Of a stretch of DNA of 64,000 nt, positions 50,561 through 60,899 are shown one piece after another. The stretch spans positions 250,501 through 314,500 of the forward strand of contig NZ_CP110848.1 in NCBI RefSeq assembly GCF_026240635.1. The letters run 5' to 3'. A model generated the notes under the pieces. That model was not told the DNA's origin, made no database searches, and saw only the letters and a program-made list of their open reading frames with translations. Position 1 is the stretch's first letter; every line of letters begins with the position of its first letter. The translations under genes were made by a program, and so were the position numbers. The stretch comes from Trichothermofontia sichuanensis B231 (GTDB taxonomy: Bacteria > Cyanobacteriota > Cyanobacteriia > B231).

Positions 50561-50814
50561 GCGCCTAGGGGTTGGCCACATCCGGGTGAGGCACCTTCCG
50601 TCAGCTCAGCCAGCGGCAAAGGTTCGGCGGCAAAAGGGAACTCCCGGTGGTCTCAAAATCACTCTCAAAATCAAAAATATAAAATTTGTGTCACAATCAA
50701 AGGTAACCGAGAGAGAAGTTGCCCCAAACCCTAGTATCCTCAACGCTAAGGAGCGGCTATCCCCCAGCTACCCTCCGGGGTAAAATCTCGCTAGACAGAT
50801 CCCGACCGACTGGG

Positions 50815-50841
50815 TTTACATTAGAAATTAAAGACTATACT
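50815..50841 (+). promoter_or_regulatory. Candidate promoter of the chemosensory operon
   Basis: TTTACA (50815-50820) and TATACT (50836-50841) lie 80 bp upstream of the first gene; the 15-bp spacer is shorter than the ideal 17. The rest of 50561-50921 is non-coding, with an AT-rich tract at 50660-50700. Confidence 0.35.
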
Positions 50842-50921
50842 AACAGAGAAGCAGCGCATCCTGCGGCTGCGATGGTTTTCGCCATGGGCAATGAGCACGG
50901 TGACTGGGAAGGGCGATCGGA

Positions 50922-51287
50922 ATGAGTCTAGTGCTGGTAGTAGAAGATAGCGTGCCGCAACGCGAGATGATCACTGAGTTATTAAAGAATAGTGGTCTCA
51001 AAGTCTATGTTGCCAGTGATGGCGTTGAAGCCCTAGAGCAGATCCAAGCACAGCGTCCTGATCTGGTCGTTTTGGACATTGTGATGCCCCGGATGAATGG
51101 GTACGAGGTCTGTCGGCGGCTGAAGGCAGATACGAAAACCCAGGATATTCCCGTTGTCATGTGTTCTTCCAAGGGCGAAGAGTTCGATCGCTATTGGGGG
51201 ATGCGTCAGGGTGCGGATGCATACATTGCCAAACCCTTTCAGCCAACCGAGTTGGTAGGGACCGTCAAACAGCTTTTGCGCGGATAG
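50922..51287 (+). CDS. CheY-like single-domain response regulator (PilH/HmpB-like)
   Basis: A 121-residue receiver domain alone. The pocket is E8-D9, the phospho-acceptor is D52 (VVLDIVMP), the switch Ser is in VVMCSSKG (residue 82), and the conserved Lys is K104 in AKPF. It has no output domain and so acts by protein contact, passing the signal of the CheA to the motor or type IV pilus. It is first of four genes, CheY-CheW-MCP-CheA, the order of the cyanobacterial pil/hmp chemosensory loci, but the PatA-type regulator that often precedes it is absent. It ends 21 bp before the CheW gene. Confidence 0.93.
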   Translation: MSLVLVVEDSVPQREMITELLKNSGLKVYVASDGVEALEQIQAQRPDLVVLDIVMPRMNGYEVCRRLKADTKTQDIPVVMCSSKGEEFDRYWGMRQGADAYIAKPFQPTELVGTVKQLLRG

Positions 51288-51308: not shown

Positions 51309-51851
51309 ATGGTTGCCAGTTCAGACTTTCTCAAAGGGAGGGGACCCGGACAGGTTCCGGCCTTCCAGGGAAGCGATGAGGGCATGGGTAATCCCGAAGG
51401 GGAGTTACACCTGCGGTTTTATGTCCCCTCTGGAACTGAGTTTGCCCTCCATGCGGTTGGCATCAAAGAGGTGATTTCTCTTGCCCCCGATCGCATTACC
51501 CCGATTCCCAACGTCTCCCCCCTGCTGCTGGGAACCCTGAATTTACGGGGGCAGGTGATCTGGGTGGCTGATCTAGGGCAATTTTTAGGAGATACCACCG
51601 TTCTCAATACCGATCGCAACGAAATCCCGGTGGTTGCGGTTCAGGACCAGGACATTATCCTGGGACTGGCGGTAGACCGAATTGTAGGTATGCATTGGCT
51701 AGATCTGGACGAGTTACAAATTGCGACCAATGTACCCGATAACATTCTTCCCTTTCTGCGGGGAGAGTGGGTGCTGAATGCAGAAACGGGCGAGCATTTA
51801 CGGTTGCTGGATCAGGCAGCCATTATTCGATCGGCACGGTGGGCAGCCTAG
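51309..51851 (+). CDS. CheW-like adaptor (PilI/HmpC-like)
   Basis: A 180-residue protein whose C-terminal about 140 residues are a CheW domain: RFYVPSGTEFALHAVGIKEVISL, ITPIPNVSPLLLGTLNLRGQVIWVADLGQFLG and VDRIVGM. It links the methyl-accepting protein to the CheA kinase in the signalling array. The first about 25 residues (SSDFLKGRGPGQVPAF) are a non-conserved tail; a start at the later Met (MGNPEGELHL) is possible. It lies 21 bp after the CheY gene and 64 bp before the receptor gene. Confidence 0.9.
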   Translation: MVASSDFLKGRGPGQVPAFQGSDEGMGNPEGELHLRFYVPSGTEFALHAVGIKEVISLAPDRITPIPNVSPLLLGTLNLRGQVIWVADLGQFLGDTTVLNTDRNEIPVVAVQDQDIILGLAVDRIVGMHWLDLDELQIATNVPDNILPFLRGEWVLNAETGEHLRLLDQAAIIRSARWAA

Positions 51852-51915: not shown

Positions 51916-54882
51916 ATGGCGTCAAGCACAGGATACTCGCAACTTTATCAGAAAGCCCAAGCAGCGTATATGGAGCAACGGTACGAAGACGCTGCAAGCT
52001 TTATTGATGAACTGGTTGCGCATCAACCCGATGATTTTAGTGCCCACCTCCTGCGCGGCCACATCTATTGCTATGGGTTGCAACAATACGAGACGGCCCG
52101 CCAAGAATACCAAACCGTACTGAGTCTGACGACTGATCCCGACTACGTCACCCTGGCTAACCAGGGGTTGGGCGATGTGGAGGAATTTGGTGGCAGTGCA
52201 GCAGCCAGCCCGTCTGCGGATACCCACTCCCCCTTGGCGGGAACCGAGAATGGGGTCGGCGTGGGGGCGAAATCGGCCTCGACGTATGGTACCGAAACCA
52301 CCGCCAGTGGGGCCACTGAAGTGTTGCCGGATCAGGACGAGACCCCCTTTGGCCATCAAGACGATTTCAGTTTTGACAACTTTTCTCTCGACGATAATCA
52401 TTTTGCCACCGACGATTTCACGGATACCGCTAATCCCTTTGAGAACCCCTTTGCCGTCGGGAGTATTGATGAACCGGCAACGACCGGCACGTCGGTAACC
52501 ACTGATTTTGCCCGTAATCCCTTTAGCAGTGACGAATTTGACACCGACTTTTCGGGAACTGAAGCGGGGGCCTCTGCCTCTCCTTTCGACTTTGCGGCGG
52601 CGGGGGATGACTTTGCGGCGGATGACTTTAGCGAGAATCACTTCGCGGGGGATCTGTCGCCTACTGTTGCCTATACGGCAGATGCCAGAACTGGGGAGAG
52701 GGACACATCCGATTTTGACTTTGATGATGCCCTTGATCGGGAGATTGGCACAGCGTCATCTGGTTATGGTGCCAGTGCTGACGATCGGGCTGAAGACAAC
52801 GCCACGATGTTCCTACCCGACCTAGATGCCAGTGCTTTTGAGCCAGCAGATAACACGGGGGCCACTGTGCCAGCAGCGGGGCCAGACGCCCCAAGGGTTG
52901 ATGCCAATCAGACCTTGGTCCACCCACCAGCCTTGGATGACTTTAGCTTTGAAGACGATTTCGGCCTCAATCAGTTTGGGAAGGGGTCAGGGAGTCCTTT
53001 CGGAGATAACCCCTTTGCTGCCGATGCGGGTACGGATGACGGTTTTGAAACCAGTCTCTTTGACGATCAGACTGTTGGTCATCAAGATACCCTGGAGAGT
53101 CGCACGCTGGGGATGCCACCAGAGACGCCTTCAGAGGGCAGTGGCAGCCAGAGCAATGTCGGTTTCCTGGATGACTTTGAAGACTTCGATGATGTGGGCA
53201 ATCTCCCCGATTTTGATCTCTCGGATACCTCAGGGGAATTGACGGGTGAATTTACCACTGGCTCGGACTTTTCCTTAGGGAGTGAAGCGGGCAGCCCACG
53301 TTCTGGCCGGACCTCTGGCTTCCGCCCAACGCCTACGCCTTTGCCTAGTCGAGATATTGACTTCAGCTTTGATGCCGCCGAGGGGGGGTATCCCTTTAGC
53401 AAGGGGACAAATAGCGTGGAAGAGGTCGGGGCGGTGGAGCAGGGCTGGCTTGCGCCTTTCCTGAATGCCCCAATGGCATCTAAACGCTGGATTATCGCGG
53501 GGGCAGCGGGGATTGTTTCATTGCTCTCGGTGGCGGTGGTCAGTTACGTGGCGGCGAATCAGGCGGCTGATAAAAATCCAGCGATGGTGGGTCAACTGCA
53601 ACGGACGGGTTTACTCATGGCGGTCGTGGCGGGGGTGACGGGGGGAGGGACCACGCTCCTCCTCAATGGGGTGGCCAACCAGCAAATTCAGCGATCGGTT
53701 AGTGAACTCCAATCTCGCTTTGATGCGGTGATTCAGGGCAATTTGAATGCACGGGCCGTCCCCCATACGGAGGATGAACTAGGGCAGCTCGCGATCGCCT
53801 TCAACCGCATGATGCAATCGATGACGGCAGTGACTGCTGAAGCCCAACGCAAGGCCGACGAAATGGAGCGGGCCAAGGAAGATCTCCAACGCCAGGTGAT
53901 CAAACTCCTGGATGACGTCGAGGGGGCAGCGCGGGGGGACCTTACGGTGCAGGCAGAGGTCACAGCGGATGTGCTGGGCGCGGTGGCTGACTCGTTCAAC
54001 TTGACGATCCAAAACCTGCGGGAGATTGTGGTCCAGGTCAAGCAAGCCACCCGGCAGGTGGCTAAAGGGGCGTCGGATAATGAGCAGTTTGCTCGGAGTC
54101 TCTCGGCGGATGCCTTGCGGCAGGCAGAAGAGTTGGCCGTCACCCTCAACTCGGTGCAGGTGATGACCGACTCGATTCAACGGGTGGCGGAAAGCGCCCG
54201 TGAGGCTGAAGATGTGGCACGATCGGCCTCTGCCAGTGCCTGGAAGGGTGGGGAAGCGGTGGAACGCACGGTGGCTGGGATTTTGCGGATTCGGGAAACG
54301 GTGGCGGAAACCACGCGGAAGGTGAAGCGGCTGGCGGAATCCTCCCAGGAAATTTCCAAGATTGTGGCTTTGATTTCCCAAATTGCTTCGCGGACCAACC
54401 TGCTGGCCTTGAACGCCAGTATTGAAGCGGCGCGTGCGGGTGAAGCGGGACGAGGGTTTGCGATCGTGGCGGATGAAGTGCGCCAGTTGGCCGATCGCGC
54501 CGCCAAGGCCTCTAAGGAAATTGAACAAATCGTGTTGCAGATTCAGGGGGAAACCAGCTCCGTCATGACCGCAATGGAAGAAGGGACCCAGCAGGTTATT
54601 GAGGGGACAAGGCTAGCGGAGCAGGCCAAGCGATCGCTCGATGACATTATTCAAGTGTCTAACCGTATTGATACGTTGGTGCGATCGATCACGGCGGACA
54701 CGGTGGAGCAAACCGAAACCTCACGGGCGGTGTCCCAGGTCATGCAATCGGTGGAACTGACGGCCCAGGAAACCTCCCAGGAAGCGCAGCGGGTATCGGC
54801 CTCGCTGCAAAGTCTGGTGGGGGTTGCCCGTGACTTGCTCAACTCCGTGGAGCGGTTCCGCGTCGAAGCCACCGAACGTTAG
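51916..54882 (+). CDS. Methyl-accepting chemotaxis protein (PilJ/HmpD-like) with TPR N-terminus and long disordered region
   Basis: A 988-residue receptor with no periplasmic ligand domain between its helices. Residues 1-90 are TPR-like ([21 protein letters not shown]). Residues of about 100-510 are an acidic, disordered stretch full of Phe/Asp motifs such as DDFS, NPF and DDFAADDF. Two membrane helices follow (about 521-545 and 563-585), joined by only about 18 residues. Then come HAMP segments ([20 protein letters not shown] and [16 protein letters not shown]) and the signalling domain with its hairpin tip around 828-862 ([20 protein letters not shown]). The input is therefore probably cytoplasmic or in-membrane. 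It is the core of the array with CheW and CheA. Confidence 0.92.
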
Positions 54883-55073: not shown

Positions 55074-58000
55074 ATGCAGTCGGATCAGCAACAACGGATC
55101 ATGGGCTATTTCATCGAAGAGGCGAAGGAACACCTCAGCACGATCGAACATGGCCTCCTCACCCTCCAAAGCACGATCGACGACCCGGAAGGCATTCAGG
55201 AACTCTTTCGAGCCGCCCACTCGGTCAAAGGGGGCGCAGCCATGCTGGGGCTGGACAGTATCCAGAAAATTGCCCACCGTCTGGAGGATTACTTTAAGGT
55301 TCTCCAGGAACATCCGATCCAGGCAGACCAAACCCTGGAATCGCTGTTTCTAAAAGGCTTTGATGCCCTCAGTGACCTGCTGGAGGAACTCGAAAGCCCC
55401 CTGGGGTTGACGGAGGAGCAGGCCCAGCGGATTATCGCGAACGTCGAGCCGGTGCTGAGCGCACTGGGGCAGCATCTCGATCAACTGGTAGTGGAGGGTA
55501 CGACGGGACTCCATCGGCCCGCTGCCCCAGCCCCCAGCCGTCCGCCAACCACCACGCCTGCGGTTGTTGAGCGACCGGCCAGTCCCCCCGAAGACAGCGC
55601 TTTGCAATTGATTTTCCGCAGTGATGTGCCCACTCGCCTGCGGGAAATGTTGCAATTGTTCAAACAGCCCGAACATTCGGCTCCAGCCCGTCAACAGCTC
55701 AATGACATTTGCCGCAGTTTAGAACAGGCAGGGGAACAGTTTGGCCTGCGGGCTTGGTGTGACTTGATCCGCGCAGTATCGGCGGCGATCGCTAACCCCA
55801 GCAACTCCCACCGTGCCCTAGCCTCGATTGTCATTCGGGAAGTGAAGCAAGCCCAAGAACTGGTTCTGGCTGGACGAGCGGATGCGATCGTCATTAGTCC
55901 GGCGTTAGAGGAACTCCTGCCATCTGAAAGGGACCACGTTGCCCCCAGTGAAGATGACCTGCGCACTTGGCTGGCAACGGCTGAGGCTGATCAATCCGTG
56001 CTGACGTCTCTGGGCCTTGATACCCTGCCAGAGATGGATAGTCAACCCCTGACGGCGGCCACCCCTGCTCCCGTCCTGGATGAACCCCTGACAGCGACCA
56101 ATGGTAGCGGGGCCAAAGCAGGGCCAGAGGTCGGTATGGCTGAATTGAATTCCCTTGCCGATCTCTTTGAGGGGGAAGTTCCCGACTTGGATCTCAGTTG
56201 GGAGGAAGAAGTGTTGGGATTCCAGGACGAGGCCGCTGTTGATCTGGCAGAGGGTGAGCTACCCGGTGATCTCTCCGATCTGCTGGCCAACGTGACGGAT
56301 ACCCAACCGCCACGTAAGCTGGTGACCGAGGATTTGGACTTTCTGGACTTCTTTGAAGAGAGCGGGGTGGGAGCGACCGGTTCACCCCCAGCCGCGGCCC
56401 CTGCCCCTACCCCAAGTTCAAGGGGAGAAGGACCAGCCGCTGGCGATCGCAGGCCAGCGGATCAGGCCGAGGTCGATAGCTTTGAGGACCTCTTGGCCAT
56501 CTACGAGGACAAGAAACAGCCGAGCACTGAGGCTGCCAGCCAGGGGCTGGCTGACGCGTCCCCACTGGATGATGAATTTGAAGGCTTGCTGGCGGCACTG
56601 GAGGCCACCCCCGACCAAACCGCTGCCCCTCCTGCTACTGATCCCGCCCTCACAGGGCTAGATGCCATTTTTGAAGACCTATCTGTTGCTGAGCCGGACC
56701 TATTGGAGGGGTTAGAATCCGTTGGCGGCGAGACTGAGACGAGGACGCGTGGGGCAACCCATGAGGCTGGGAGCGCAGCTTCTCCGATCCTGTCCGAGGA
56801 TATCGGCGATTGGGAGCTGGACCAGGAGGCAGGCTCAACCGCTGTCGGTGCTGAGGCAGCCCGCTCAGGCTCCAGCTTAACTGATGGGGCTGATTTTGCC
56901 TGGGATGAAACCGACACCGAGCTGGGGGCTTTACTGGAGGAAATGACGCTCACCGATGGGGGCATGGCGGAGCCGATCGTCGAGACCTCAGACTTGGACA
57001 TGGGGTTAGATGCGTTACTGGATGCGATCGCCACCGATACTAGCCAAGCCTCGACGGATACCAAACCAGCGGCTCCCCTGACCGATGGGCAAGGGGGCAG
57101 GGGGTCTCCGGATAAGGAGGGATCCCCTGCTACCGCAAGGCATGGAGGGACCGCCGCACCCAGTTCCTCAGCGATCGCCCCCGCAGAACAAGCTGATCTG
57201 AAACCCACCACTGTAGGTCAGTCCGAGGAGGGGCGGCCCGATCAGAGCGCCTCTACCCGCGAGGCAATCGGAGAAACGGCAGCCCCCCGTCTGACGCCGT
57301 CCGAGTTGACCACGGGGGTTGAAGCAGTGCCGCCACCCCCTGCCCCCCGCCAACTGGTCACGGATCCCTGGGAAGTGATGTTTGGCGATGAAGAAATGCT
57401 GCTGAGCGAGGGAGAAACCGGCGCAACCACCGCTGCTCGTCAGGCACCCACCACCGACACCCTCTCGGATCCCACTGAAGATACCCTAACTGACGGGGGT
57501 GAAGCCAGTGTCGCTGGAGAAACAGAAGCACCTCCTCCGACTAGCACTGAAATGCCGACGGAATGGGTCAAGGAGATTGATGACTTTTTTGCCGTTGAAC
57601 CGGTCGCGTCCCCTGAGGCCGGGACGGTTGCTCCAGCCACGATACCGAGTCCTGCTGGGCCAGCGTTGACCCCGCCGATCGCCCAGCGTCCTGAAGCGGA
57701 AAGGGCACCGATCGCACCAGTGGGTACTGAGGCAATGGCCGTAGAGACACCCGTATCGGGTCAGGAACCTGAGGAGGCTGAAGCGGGGCTGGGGCAACCG
57801 TGGCCAGAAATCGGAACTTCGGATGAATTTGAGGATGAATTTGGGGATGAACTGGATCCCTTACTGGCCGGCGAAGCAGAAATCGATTTAGATTTGCTCG
57901 GATGGGATACGACTGACGCTGCCCCAGAAGCACTTCCCACTGCTGCAGGCGAGTTGAGTGAGCTAGCCAGTCTCGATGACTTGACAGATTTAGGGACAGA

Positions 58001-60899
58001 TTTAGGGACAGATTTAGGGGAACTCGCCGCCAGCCTGGGTGAACCCGAGGTGCAGTTGAGTGAACTTGACACTCTCGCTGAGTCAGAAGCGTCTTTCGGT
58101 GAGTTAGAGAATCTTGGTGAAAGTGAAGATCTGGCTGAGTTGGAAAATCTTACCGAATTGGTGATAGGGGAGGTTGAGGCTGACGAGGCTCGACAAGGGG
58201 AAATCACCCTGGAGCCAGAAATTCCCGCCGCCACGGGGGAAACTGCCGTAACTGACGAGGACTTTCCAGAGCACCTGTTTGACGACTTGATGGAGAGCGA
58301 AGCGCTAGAGCTGGCGGAAATTGACATTGAACCCTCTGATGAGGTTGAAGAGCAGGGCGATATCGCCGCCACCCTGGGACTAGAACCGGTTGACCTCCTG
58401 GCAGGGGCCGAGGAATCTAGCGAAGCCGTGGATGTGGACTTTCCCGATTTAGATCAGGAACTGGAATCCCTGGCGCTGGATGCCCTCGACCTCGCGGCAG
58501 GGGCGGACGCATCAGCGACGGCGGCGATCGGAGCTGAGGTGACTGAGTTAGAAAGCTTAGACGAATTAGAAGCCCTGTTGGAGGCAGCAATGCCCGATGT
58601 CGGGACTACGGTAGATAGCCAGGATCTGGCTGATTTAGATCGGCTGCTGGAAACCGAGGTGACGACTCAATCCACAACGGCAGTTAGTCCCGCCGCTGAG
58701 GCGGAAGCTAGCTTTGCAGAATTGGAGTCACTGCTGGAGGCTGAAGTCTGTGAACCTCAGCCCGCGCCAACAGCTCCAACGGCCCCCCCACCCACTACCA
58801 GTACAGCGCCTGCCAGTGGCTCGAAGGCTGAAGACGATGAATTTGATGATCTGGAGAAGTTGCTGAAGGCCGCCGACGAAACCTTGGGGGGACCGGCAGT
58901 TGCGGCCAATCGGGTTCAAACCCCTATTGGACGGCGACGGGCAATGGTGGAGCAAACCATGCGGGTACCCGTCAAACAGTTGGATGGGCTAAGTAACCTG
59001 GTGGGGGAATTAGTCGTCAGCCGTAATAGTTTGGAACAGAACCAGGAACGCCTCCGCCAGTTCCTGGACAATCTGCTCTATCAGGTGCAGCAACTCAGTG
59101 ATGTTGGCCAACGGATGCGCGATCTGTATGAACGATCGCTGCTGGAAGCCTCCCTGTTATCTCACCGTCAGGGCTACTCAACCCCGGCAACTGGAACCCA
59201 CTCAGCCAATGGGAGTGGGGATTCCCACTCCACCGGCGTCAACTTTGATGCCTTGGAAATGGACCGGTTTACCGCTTTCCATACCCTCTCCCAGGAAATG
59301 ATCGAATTAATCGTCCGGGTGCGGGAGTCAGCTTCTGACATTGAGTTCACGGGCGATGAAACGGATCAAATTACGCGGCAGTTCCGCCAGATTACGACCC
59401 AACTGCAAGAGAGCCTAACGCGATCGCGCATGGTGCCCTTTGCCCAGGCTGCCGATCGTCTGCCCCGTGCGGTGCGGGATATTTCGCTCAAGTGTGGTAA
59501 ACAGGCGGATTTACAGGTTGAAGGTCGGGATACGCTCATTGACAAGATGATCCTGGAGCAGTTGTACGATCCCCTGACCCACCTGGTCAATAACGCGATT
59601 ACCCACGGGATTGAGACGCCAGAGGCACGCATCGCAGCCGGGAAACCCCCTAGGGGTCGGATCACTATTCGTGCCTTCCACACCGGTAACCAGACGGTGA
59701 TCGCGATCGCTGATGATGGGGCTGGTATTGATGCCGAGCTGGTCAAACGTAAGGCTGTTGAAAAGGGCTTAATCACCCCTCAAGAGGCGCAAACCATGTC
59801 GCGGCTGGATGCCTACGACCTACTCTTCCTGCCTGGGTTTAGTACTAAGGACAAGGCGGATGACTTTGCTGGACGGGGCGTGGGCATGGACGTGGTGCGT
59901 ACCAGCCTCAGCGAAATTCGCGGGGTGATCAACACCGACTCCACGCTGGGGAAGGGGACCACGTTTACCATTCGGTTACCCCTGACCCTGAGTATTTCTA
60001 AGGCGCTGCTGTGTCTGAGTAACCGTACCCGCATTGCCTTCCCGATGGACGGGGTGGAAGATATGCTGGATGTTCCCAGGGATCGGGTCCAAACCAACGA
60101 GGAAGGCCAGACCTGCATTCTCTGGCGAGATACCCTCCTGCCCTTCCGGCCCCTCTCGGATCTGCTCAAATACAATCGCCAAATGGGACGGGGGAGTATC
60201 TATGGCGGGGCAACCCTGGATGATGACATCATTTCGGTGGTGGTGCTGCGCAGTGCGAGCAATTTCGTGGCCTTGCAAGTAGATCAGGTCGAAGGCGAGC
60301 GGGAAATTGTGATCAAGCAGTTGGAAGGTCCGGTGCCCAAGCCGATCGGTATTGCCGGGGCGACGGTCATGGGGGATGGCCGCATTATGCCGATCGCGGA
60401 TGTGTTGGAATTGATTGACTTGGCGATGGGCCGGATGCGCGGTGGCAGCAGCAGTATGTGGGAACAACAAGCGCCCCCGCCGATGGTCGAGGAAGCCACG
60501 ACGACCGAACCGACGGTGTTGATTGTGGACGATTCGATTACGGTCCGCGAGTTGTTGTCAATGACTTTTACCAAGGCGGGCTATCGGGTCGAGCAGGCCC
60601 GCGATGGTCAGGAAGCGTGGGAAAAACTGCGATCGGGTCTTCCCTGCGATCTTGTCTTTTGCGACATCGAAATGCCCCGCATGGACGGTCTGGAGTTGCT
60701 CTCGCGGCTACAAAAGGATCCCCACCTCAGCCAGCTCCCCATTGCGATGCTCACGTCGCGGGGAGCCGATCGACACCGGCAAATGGCCATTCAACTGGGG
60801 GCCAGTGGCTACTTCACCAAGCCTTATCTCGAAGAAGCGTTGCTGGATGCGGCGTCACGGATGCTTAAGGGTGAGGTGTTAGTCGCGAGTGGGGCTTAA
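55074..60899 (+). CDS. Hybrid CheA-type histidine kinase / receiver (PilL/HmpE-like), 1,941 residues
   Basis: Domain order: Hpt at 1-120 with phosphorylated His H49 (FRAAHSVKGGAAML); a second Hpt-like helical region about 180-290 without a clear His; a very long acidic, low-complexity linker (about 290-1280, motifs LESLxELE, DLGTDLG); a CheA dimerisation domain (VPVKQLDGLSNLVGELVVSR); HATPase (N box from residue 1503, HLVNNAITHG; G boxes ADDGAGID and GRGVGMDVV); a CheW-like domain; and a C-terminal receiver with D1864 (VFCDIEMPRMDG) and Lys in TKPY. Autophosphorylation and transfer to CheY or its own receiver are expected. The ATG at 55074 has TAGGGA 7 bp upstream. The length is large even for this family. 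Confidence 0.92.
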   Translation: MQSDQQQRIMGYFIEEAKEHLSTIEHGLLTLQSTIDDPEGIQELFRAAHSVKGGAAMLGLDSIQKIAHRLEDYFKVLQEHPIQADQTLESLFLKGFDALSDLLEELESPLGLTEEQAQRIIANVEPVLSALGQHLDQLVVEGTTGLHRPAAPAPSRPPTTTPAVVERPASPPEDSALQLIFRSDVPTRLREMLQLFKQPEHSAPARQQLNDICRSLEQAGEQFGLRAWCDLIRAVSAAIANPSNSHRALASIVIREVKQAQELVLAGRADAIVISPALEELLPSERDHVAPSEDDLRTWLATAEADQSVLTSLGLDTLPEMDSQPLTAATPAPVLDEPLTATNGSGAKAGPEVGMAELNSLADLFEGEVPDLDLSWEEEVLGFQDEAAVDLAEGELPGDLSDLLANVTDTQPPRKLVTEDLDFLDFFEESGVGATGSPPAAAPAPTPSSRGEGPAAGDRRPADQAEVDSFEDLLAIYEDKKQPSTEAASQGLADASPLDDEFEGLLAALEATPDQTAAPPATDPALTGLDAIFEDLSVAEPDLLEGLESVGGETETRTRGATHEAGSAASPILSEDIGDWELDQEAGSTAVGAEAARSGSSLTDGADFAWDETDTELGALLEEMTLTDGGMAEPIVETSDLDMGLDALLDAIATDTSQASTDTKPAAPLTDGQGGRGSPDKEGSPATARHGGTAAPSSSAIAPAEQADLKPTTVGQSEEGRPDQSASTREAIGETAAPRLTPSELTTGVEAVPPPPAPRQLVTDPWEVMFGDEEMLLSEGETGATTAARQAPTTDTLSDPTEDTLTDGGEASVAGETEAPPPTSTEMPTEWVKEIDDFFAVEPVASPEAGTVAPATIPSPAGPALTPPIAQRPEAERAPIAPVGTEAMAVETPVSGQEPEEAEAGLGQPWPEIGTSDEFEDEFGDELDPLLAGEAEIDLDLLGWDTTDAAPEALPTAAGELSELASLDDLTDLGTDLGTDLGELAASLGEPEVQLSELDTLAESEASFGELENLGESEDLAELENLTELVIGEVEADEARQGEITLEPEIPAATGETAVTDEDFPEHLFDDLMESEALELAEIDIEPSDEVEEQGDIAATLGLEPVDLLAGAEESSEAVDVDFPDLDQELESLALDALDLAAGADASATAAIGAEVTELESLDELEALLEAAMPDVGTTVDSQDLADLDRLLETEVTTQSTTAVSPAAEAEASFAELESLLEAEVCEPQPAPTAPTAPPPTTSTAPASGSKAEDDEFDDLEKLLKAADETLGGPAVAANRVQTPIGRRRAMVEQTMRVPVKQLDGLSNLVGELVVSRNSLEQNQERLRQFLDNLLYQVQQLSDVGQRMRDLYERSLLEASLLSHRQGYSTPATGTHSANGSGDSHSTGVNFDALEMDRFTAFHTLSQEMIELIVRVRESASDIEFTGDETDQITRQFRQITTQLQESLTRSRMVPFAQAADRLPRAVRDISLKCGKQADLQVEGRDTLIDKMILEQLYDPLTHLVNNAITHGIETPEARIAAGKPPRGRITIRAFHTGNQTVIAIADDGAGIDAELVKRKAVEKGLITPQEAQTMSRLDAYDLLFLPGFSTKDKADDFAGRGVGMDVVRTSLSEIRGVINTDSTLGKGTTFTIRLPLTLSISKALLCLSNRTRIAFPMDGVEDMLDVPRDRVQTNEEGQTCILWRDTLLPFRPLSDLLKYNRQMGRGSIYGGATLDDDIISVVVLRSASNFVALQVDQVEGEREIVIKQLEGPVPKPIGIAGATVMGDGRIMPIADVLELIDLAMGRMRGGSSSMWEQQAPPPMVEEATTTEPTVLIVDDSITVRELLSMTFTKAGYRVEQARDGQEAWEKLRSGLPCDLVFCDIEMPRMDGLELLSRLQKDPHLSQLPIAMLTSRGADRHRQMAIQLGASGYFTKPYLEEALLDAASRMLKGEVLVASGA
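57984..58019 (+). repeat. Three perfect 12-bp repeats within the CheA linker
   Basis: ACAGATTTAGGG occurs three times in tandem, encoding the peptide TDLG three times in the acidic linker. Confidence 0.85.

Follow-up and report, generated by a model that had tools for sequence, protein, structure and literature searches.

The genome of Trichothermofontia sichuanensis B231 (4.44 Mb, one contig) encodes, in the window analysed here (the whole stretch of 64,000 nucleotides), a methyl-accepting chemoreceptor (MCP) of 988 amino acids. As listed in Table 1, genes for CheY and CheW precede the receptor gene, and a gene for a CheA of about 1940 amino acids with a receiver domain comes after it. Thus, the receptor gene shares its locus with those of CheY, CheW and CheA, arranged as in hmp. 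The relatives found with the receptor gene are cyanobacteria. In two of them, L147 (Scytolyngbya) and L215 (Nostoc calcicola), the order is regulator, CheY, CheW, MCP and CheA, and a coiled-coil gene lies upstream on the opposite strand. The regulator of L147 contains DUF4388, which we take to correspond to PATAN, and a receiver domain (Pfam). The coiled-coil protein of L147, at the HmpF position, gave only sub-threshold coiled-coil matches; the name HmpF was assigned from gene position and coiled-coil character only. Because the gene order and domains parallel the hmp loci of these relatives, the gene is identified, on sequence grounds, as encoding the receptor HmpD/PilJ, which belongs to the hmp (tax3) system of cyanobacterial pili. 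This receptor and its pathway are already known.

The hmp locus is split in the T. sichuanensis B231 genome. The hmpA gene (DUF4388-receiver regulator) is absent from positions 50561-50921, upstream of CheY; hmpA precedes hmpB in the relatives L139, L147, L151, L180 and L215. Relatives of the HmpF- and HmpA-position genes are present in this genome away from the locus: the best match to the HmpF-position protein is at 1,966,670 (48% identity), and the best match to the HmpA-position protein is at 3,967,203 (59% identity; G000:C1). The idea that the HmpA relative is broken was rejected, since the TAA is the terminal stop of an intact 418-amino-acid frame. One CheR match and one CheB match were observed elsewhere in the genome. 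For reference, a table in PMC10581220 gives hmpA-F as Npun_F5960-F5964 and Npun_R5959.

Table 1 Features of the receptor locus, with positions in the window and the basis of each assignment
Feature	Position	Strand	Basis
CheY-like response regulator (HmpB/PilH position)	50922..51287	+	Pfam, gene order
CheW (HmpC/PilI position)	51309..51851	+	Pfam, gene order
HmpD/PilJ-type methyl-accepting chemoreceptor	51916..54882	+	ORF, Pfam, orthologues, gene order
TPR domain, residues 1-95, five helices	51916..52200	+	AlphaFold2, Foldseek, alignments
Acidic Phe-rich disordered tether of variable length, residues 96-411	52201..53148	+	Composition, AlphaFold2
NPF motifs, residues 173-175 and 177-179	52432..52452	+	Sequence
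NPF motif, residues 201-203; F203 near-invariant (45 sequences)	52516..52524	+	Alignment
NPF motif, residues 365-367	53008..53016	+	Sequence
Conserved island, residues 417-435, about 110 residues before membrane helix 1 (TM1)	53164..53220	+	Alignments, profile, pattern
Conserved juxtamembrane stretch, residues 507-519	53434..53472	+	Alignment
Membrane helix 1, about residues 525-546	53488..53553	+	Hydropathy, AlphaFold2
Membrane helix 2, about residues 564-585	53605..53670	+	Hydropathy, AlphaFold2
HAMP domain, residues 590-636	53683..53823	+	Pfam
MCP signalling domain, residues 766-946	54211..54753	+	Pfam
Hybrid kinase CheA at the HmpE/PilL position; contains a long acidic linker of its own	55074..60899	+	Pfam, linker comparison
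Motif DEFDDLEKLL, last part of the CheA linker, preceding the dimerisation domain	58836..58865	+	Motif comparison

Relatives and domain organisation of the receptor

When residues 1-93 (the TPR region) were used as a query, 135 of 291 genomes of the phylum matched at E ≤ 1e-4, weak matches included; the weak end of these matches is probably other TPR proteins. The 104 loci examined stem from the stronger matches, and TPR and MCP matches were found in one open reading frame (ORF) at 103 of them (five of these were duplicates). From these, a 97-member set was made, which contains the window receptor and excludes L134-L138 (wider duplicates), L104 (no joint ORF), and L100 and L101 (described below). 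For a second set, the best 80 of 242 relatives in species genomes were taken; 69 had a two-domain ORF inside the contig, and 67 were kept after L141 and L208 were dropped. Six of the 67 receptors are identical to members of the 97-member set.

By Pfam, the cut-offs were passed only by the HAMP and MCPsignal models in the window receptor, and both domains were found in all 45 receptors searched (the window receptor and 44 relatives). Pfam TPR models matched within residues 10-81 below the cut-off, and TPR_16 was matched at E ≤ 0.001 in 16 of the 45. An AlphaFold2 model of the full-length receptor, built on 45 sequences, has a mean pLDDT of 58 as a whole. The TPR region is predicted as five helices between residues 5 and 95 with pLDDT 93-97 over residues 11-90, and the N-terminal domain modelled alone has a mean pLDDT of 90.3. 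Foldseek with this isolated domain gave no match at E ≤ 0.001; the matches listed (best E 0.0029, TM-score up to 0.79) were mostly TPR structures and include peptide-binding TPRs (CHIP, HOP and Sgt2) and designed TPRs. Thus, structure prediction and Foldseek indicate that the receptor starts with helix-turn-helix repeats of the TPR fold. The net charge of the TPR is -10. From residue 97 to residue 500, pLDDT is below 50 except at single residues and at 417-428, which is the sole multi-residue stretch not below this level. The preliminary description had placed a TPR and a disordered region of about 400 residues on the cytoplasmic side, and both are borne out by these models.

Membrane helices were found at residues 525-543 and 565-583 by hydropathy, and AlphaFold2 gave helices at 520-550 and 558-606 in this region. 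Alignment places 19 residues between the two helices of the window receptor, in agreement with the figure of about 18 estimated beforehand. The accompanying claim, that there is no room for an external ligand domain, held across the family: none of the 97 receptors counted, from which L100 and L101 were excluded by choice, has a gap longer than 60 residues, and Pfam found no periplasmic ligand-binding (PilJ) domain in any of the 45 receptors. A periplasmic ligand domain was rejected on these two results. Since there is no external domain, the input must come via the membrane hairpin or the cytoplasmic N-terminus. L100 (G282) and L101 (G193) possess an N-terminal TPR match and 291 and 284 residues, respectively, between hydrophobic helices. 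They are second copies, the other copy of each genome being counted among the 97, and may be TPR-headed receptors with a periplasmic domain.

The acidic Phe-rich tether and its conserved island

Residues 92-480 of the window receptor contain 36 Phe, 58 Asp, 22 Glu, 2 Lys and 11 Arg. The pattern [DE][DE]F occurs nine times in this region against 1.5 in shuffled sequences (0 of 5000 shuffles reach nine), and [ND]PF occurs four times, each time as NPF, against 0.5 (p 0.0006). Therefore, the DDF/NPF-type motifs that had been noticed in the acidic Phe/Asp-rich stretch are confirmed by count. In the family, NPF or DPF is present at least once in 80 of 97 members. The net charge per residue of the tether is -0.17 in the window receptor (family median -0.21, range -0.12 to -0.37), Lys and Arg are few, and the aromatic residues are mostly Phe rather than Tyr or Trp. 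Phe density in family tethers is 6.7% (IQR 6.0-7.5) and falls below 3% only in L099; the Phe count tracks tether length (Spearman 0.87). The exact positions of most Phe residues vary across the family, and what is kept is the density and the island.

We analysed the spacing of the aromatic residues in 95 tethers; L069 and L099 were skipped (fewer than 100 residues or fewer than eight aromatics). By blob asymmetry, 41 of the 95 lie at or below the 5th percentile of their shuffles, and by gap variation 38 do; none lies at or above the 95th percentile by either measure. Phe-Phe neighbours occur at 0.20 of expectation, gaps of 3-5 are favoured and there is an excess at 9; part of this gap preference and of the excess at 9 may stem from the island. 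The tether of the window receptor stands at the 2.3rd percentile by blob asymmetry but at the 36th by gap variation, so its even spacing is seen by one measure and not by the other. Because Phe density is kept and spacing is more even than in shuffles in many of the tethers, the outcome that the preliminary description named as speaking against it, no conservation of spacing among relatives, was not obtained.

The preliminary description was right about the composition of the N-terminus, but it did not single out the most conserved part of the tether. This part, the island, is one strong block of column conservation. Median identity to the window receptor is 55% in the island, 47% in the TPR and 32% in the hairpin (521-590); over aligned residues it is 17% for 92-410 and 13% for 437-500. 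In addition, F203, T297, F483, P493-F494, Q509-G510 and N517 are near-invariant in 45 sequences. A strict island pattern, written after inspection of the 97-member-set alignment, was found in 58 of 97 members, against a mean of 1.2 and a maximum of 5 in 100 rounds of shuffling, which controls for composition and not for ancestry. Among the species-genome relatives it was found in 64 of 67 (shuffles: mean 0.7, maximum 4), the three exceptions being L162, L166 and L216. Several of the 39 members without the strict pattern retain a looser DDL-x-DFDL form, and these 39 must manage otherwise or by the looser form. The loose pattern (61 of 97 against 15.7 shuffled) is weak evidence alone.

The island lies at a near-fixed distance from the membrane. 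Its distance to TM1 has a median of 111 residues (SD 5.6, range 102-129) in the 56 of 97 members measured, and of 112 (SD 10.0, range 105-166) in 64 of the 67 species-genome relatives. In contrast, the distance from the end of the TPR to the island ranges from 95 to 689 in the 97-member set and from 193 to 674 in the species-genome set. The island has no helix or strand and a pLDDT near 50 in the AlphaFold2 model, which therefore offers no bound conformation. At E ≤ 0.1, a profile built from the island matched 86 of 145 genomes of the class, 73 of them below 0.001. In the own genome, the only match at E ≤ 0.1 is the receptor gene, and the idea that the island is common to other proteins was rejected. 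In genomes of family f27, extra ORFs of 405-428 amino acids match the profile weakly (E 0.0015-0.04); such a second ORF, for example G282:C221:16514-16546, aligns to island positions 14-24, possibly by chance.

The loop between the membrane helices is shorter in island-bearing members (median 16 against 20, p 0.005, kinship ignored). Fifteen members without the strict pattern (L057, L064, L067, L068, L070-L072, L074, L075, L078, L079, L087, L090, L091 and L095) have 37-60 residues between the helices, and in most of them Pro, Lys or Thr is abundant in this gap. In the shortened receptors L102 and L103 (genomes G233 and G051; 483-487 amino acids), the alignment skips from window residue 600 to 736 and ends at 929: the signalling hairpin is contracted, and an island-like stretch is retained.

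The CheA linker, which is about 1000 amino acids long, acidic and Leu-rich in the window, served for comparison in 25 sequences with Hpt and kinase in one ORF. Its Phe content is 4.4% (CV 0.29, n = 25), against 8.0% (CV 0.19, n = 23, same loci) in the receptor tether. FxxLxxLL-type motifs are present in 19 of the 25 CheA sequences (mean 1.56; shuffles 0.00 after rounding), and [DE]F[DEA][DE][LIV] motifs in 19 of the 25 linkers (mean 1.64; shuffles 0.21). The latter motif, exemplified by DEFDDLEKLL in the window CheA, is borne by the island too. However, the strict island pattern was found in 0 of 25 CheA linkers. That the island is common to CheA was thus rejected by the strict pattern, and only a looser acidic Phe-Leu motif recurs.

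Possible roles of the N-terminal region

We propose that the N-terminus of the receptor is a cytoplasmic docking tether for regulators of the pilus motor, near the array at the poles; we hold this proposal to have an even chance of being correct. The input side of the receptor would be turned towards the cytoplasm. Its TPR cap, together with the disordered tether, acidic and rich in Phe, would serve as a docking line. Several Phe sites on it would be weak, and the main putative docking site would be the FLDEFDEFDDLGNIPDFDL-type island, which lies about 110 residues away from the membrane. Because the island stands at a near-fixed distance from the membrane, we argue for a specific docking site, and we infer that both the island and the TPR bind proteins. 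Most likely, the tether would bring regulators of the type IV pilus motors together at the cell poles, next to the array of receptor, CheW and CheA, and a bound partner would in turn influence the kinase or the choice of motor. HmpF would be the first candidate partner, and the response regulators HmpA and HmpB or PilB and PilT would be others. HmpF leads because PilJ was recovered in a published pull-down: in PMC7002697, PilJ, McpA, PilB and Slr0161 came down with Synechocystis HmpF-YFP. This does not prove direct contact, and the over-expression of the tagged protein and the recovery of McpA as well count against it. The conservation of the island, the confidently folded TPR with peptide-binding TPRs among its structural matches, and the short gap between the membrane helices also favour docking; the 39 of 97 members that lack the strict island, the Phe-poor tether of L099, the low pLDDT of the island and the acidic character of the TPR speak against it. 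Furthermore, passages of PMC11407516 and PMC12288463 state that Hmp controls the leading-pole position of HmpF and that HmpF interacts with Hfq and PilT.

An extension of the docking proposal, which we think improbable, is that the disordered tether is itself the sensory input and reads the occupancy of the island and Phe sites by HmpF or motor proteins. If so, the receptor would sense the cell's own machine and not an outside ligand. A receptor with a conserved cytoplasmic docking island and no external sensor would widen the notion of the input end of a chemoreceptor, and the 19 residues of the island lend themselves to point mutation and pull-down.

Other explanations use parts of the same evidence. 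One is condensation, which the preliminary description had suggested: evenly spaced Phe stickers would cause the N-termini to coalesce, by themselves or together with a basic partner, and so concentrate the array at the pole. We consider this unlikely. Strong net charge, few Lys and Arg, and Phe rather than Tyr or Trp disfavour self-condensation, and the tether has all three properties; condensation with a basic partner may still occur. Phe density held within a narrow range over very different tether lengths, more even Phe in 41 of 95 tethers with none clustered, and the lower and somewhat more variable Phe content of the CheA linker, which served as an acidic control, all fit condensation; however, it leaves a single island at a near-fixed distance from the membrane unexplained. 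At the other extreme, the tether may be a passive spacer that just keeps the TPR off the membrane, its composition being drift of a low-complexity region. It is indeed mostly poorly alignable (17% identity over aligned residues), but drift would not be expected to keep the Phe density, the NPF or DPF in most members, or an island at such a regular spacing, and this explanation is highly improbable.

Two other explanations concern the membrane hairpin and the TPR. In the first, the hairpin would sense the proton motive force or the state of the membrane, leaving the N-terminus only to tune or place the receptor. The short loop in all 97 counted receptors is consistent with this, and passages of PMC9239167 and PMC12288463 suggest that Hmp responds to light, possibly via proton motive force. 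However, the hairpin is less conserved than the TPR and the island. We consider a hairpin sensor unlikely; it is compatible with docking and hence only partly a rival. In the second, the TPR might bind Phe motifs, either those of its own tether or the similar ones in the CheA linker, and so cross-link receptors and kinase in self-assembly or auto-inhibition. The [DE]F[DEA][DE][LIV] motifs shared by the island and most CheA linkers speak for this. Against it, the 25 CheA linkers compared lack the strict island, the island reaches a pLDDT of only about 50 in the full-length model, and the TPR, being itself acidic, is not a likely receptor for acidic motifs. Such binding thus seems distinctly unlikely, and docking of pilus-motor regulators remains our preferred reading.

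Comparison with known chemoreceptor systems

The closest known receptors are HmpD of Nostoc punctiforme and PilJ (tax3) of Synechocystis. The hmp gene order, with the DUF4388-receiver regulator first, is present in N. calcicola (L215), whose receptor is 51% identical to the window receptor by alignment. The T. sichuanensis genome differs in that its hmpA- and hmpF-like genes lie away from the locus. In the portions of the open-licence literature searched, outside which key hmp papers lie, neither the TPR nor the tether nor the island of HmpD is mentioned. Within that scope, the TPR-tether-island design appears undescribed, although a description may exist elsewhere.

PilJ of Pseudomonas aeruginosa (Pil-Chp) is the MCP of a chemosensory cluster that steers pili, and it has a periplasmic ligand-binding region. 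Both it and the window receptor are MCPs of pilus-steering clusters; however, the window receptor and the 44 relatives possess no periplasmic domain by Pfam. We therefore class the receptor as an HmpD and not as a Pseudomonas-type PilJ. The three other MCPs of the T. sichuanensis genome (L002-L004) have the MCP signalling domain in common with the window receptor. They are 485-490 amino acids long, their two hydrophobic stretches lie 159 residues apart, and they have no TPR or tether because the sequence starts at the first of these stretches. A flexible receptor tail that recruits an enzyme by a short motif is described (PMC7390727 and PMC10561060) for the C-terminal pentapeptide of Escherichia coli Tar and Tsr. 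The tether of the window receptor is alike in principle, but it lies at the N-terminus, spans hundreds of residues and is both acidic and rich in Phe.
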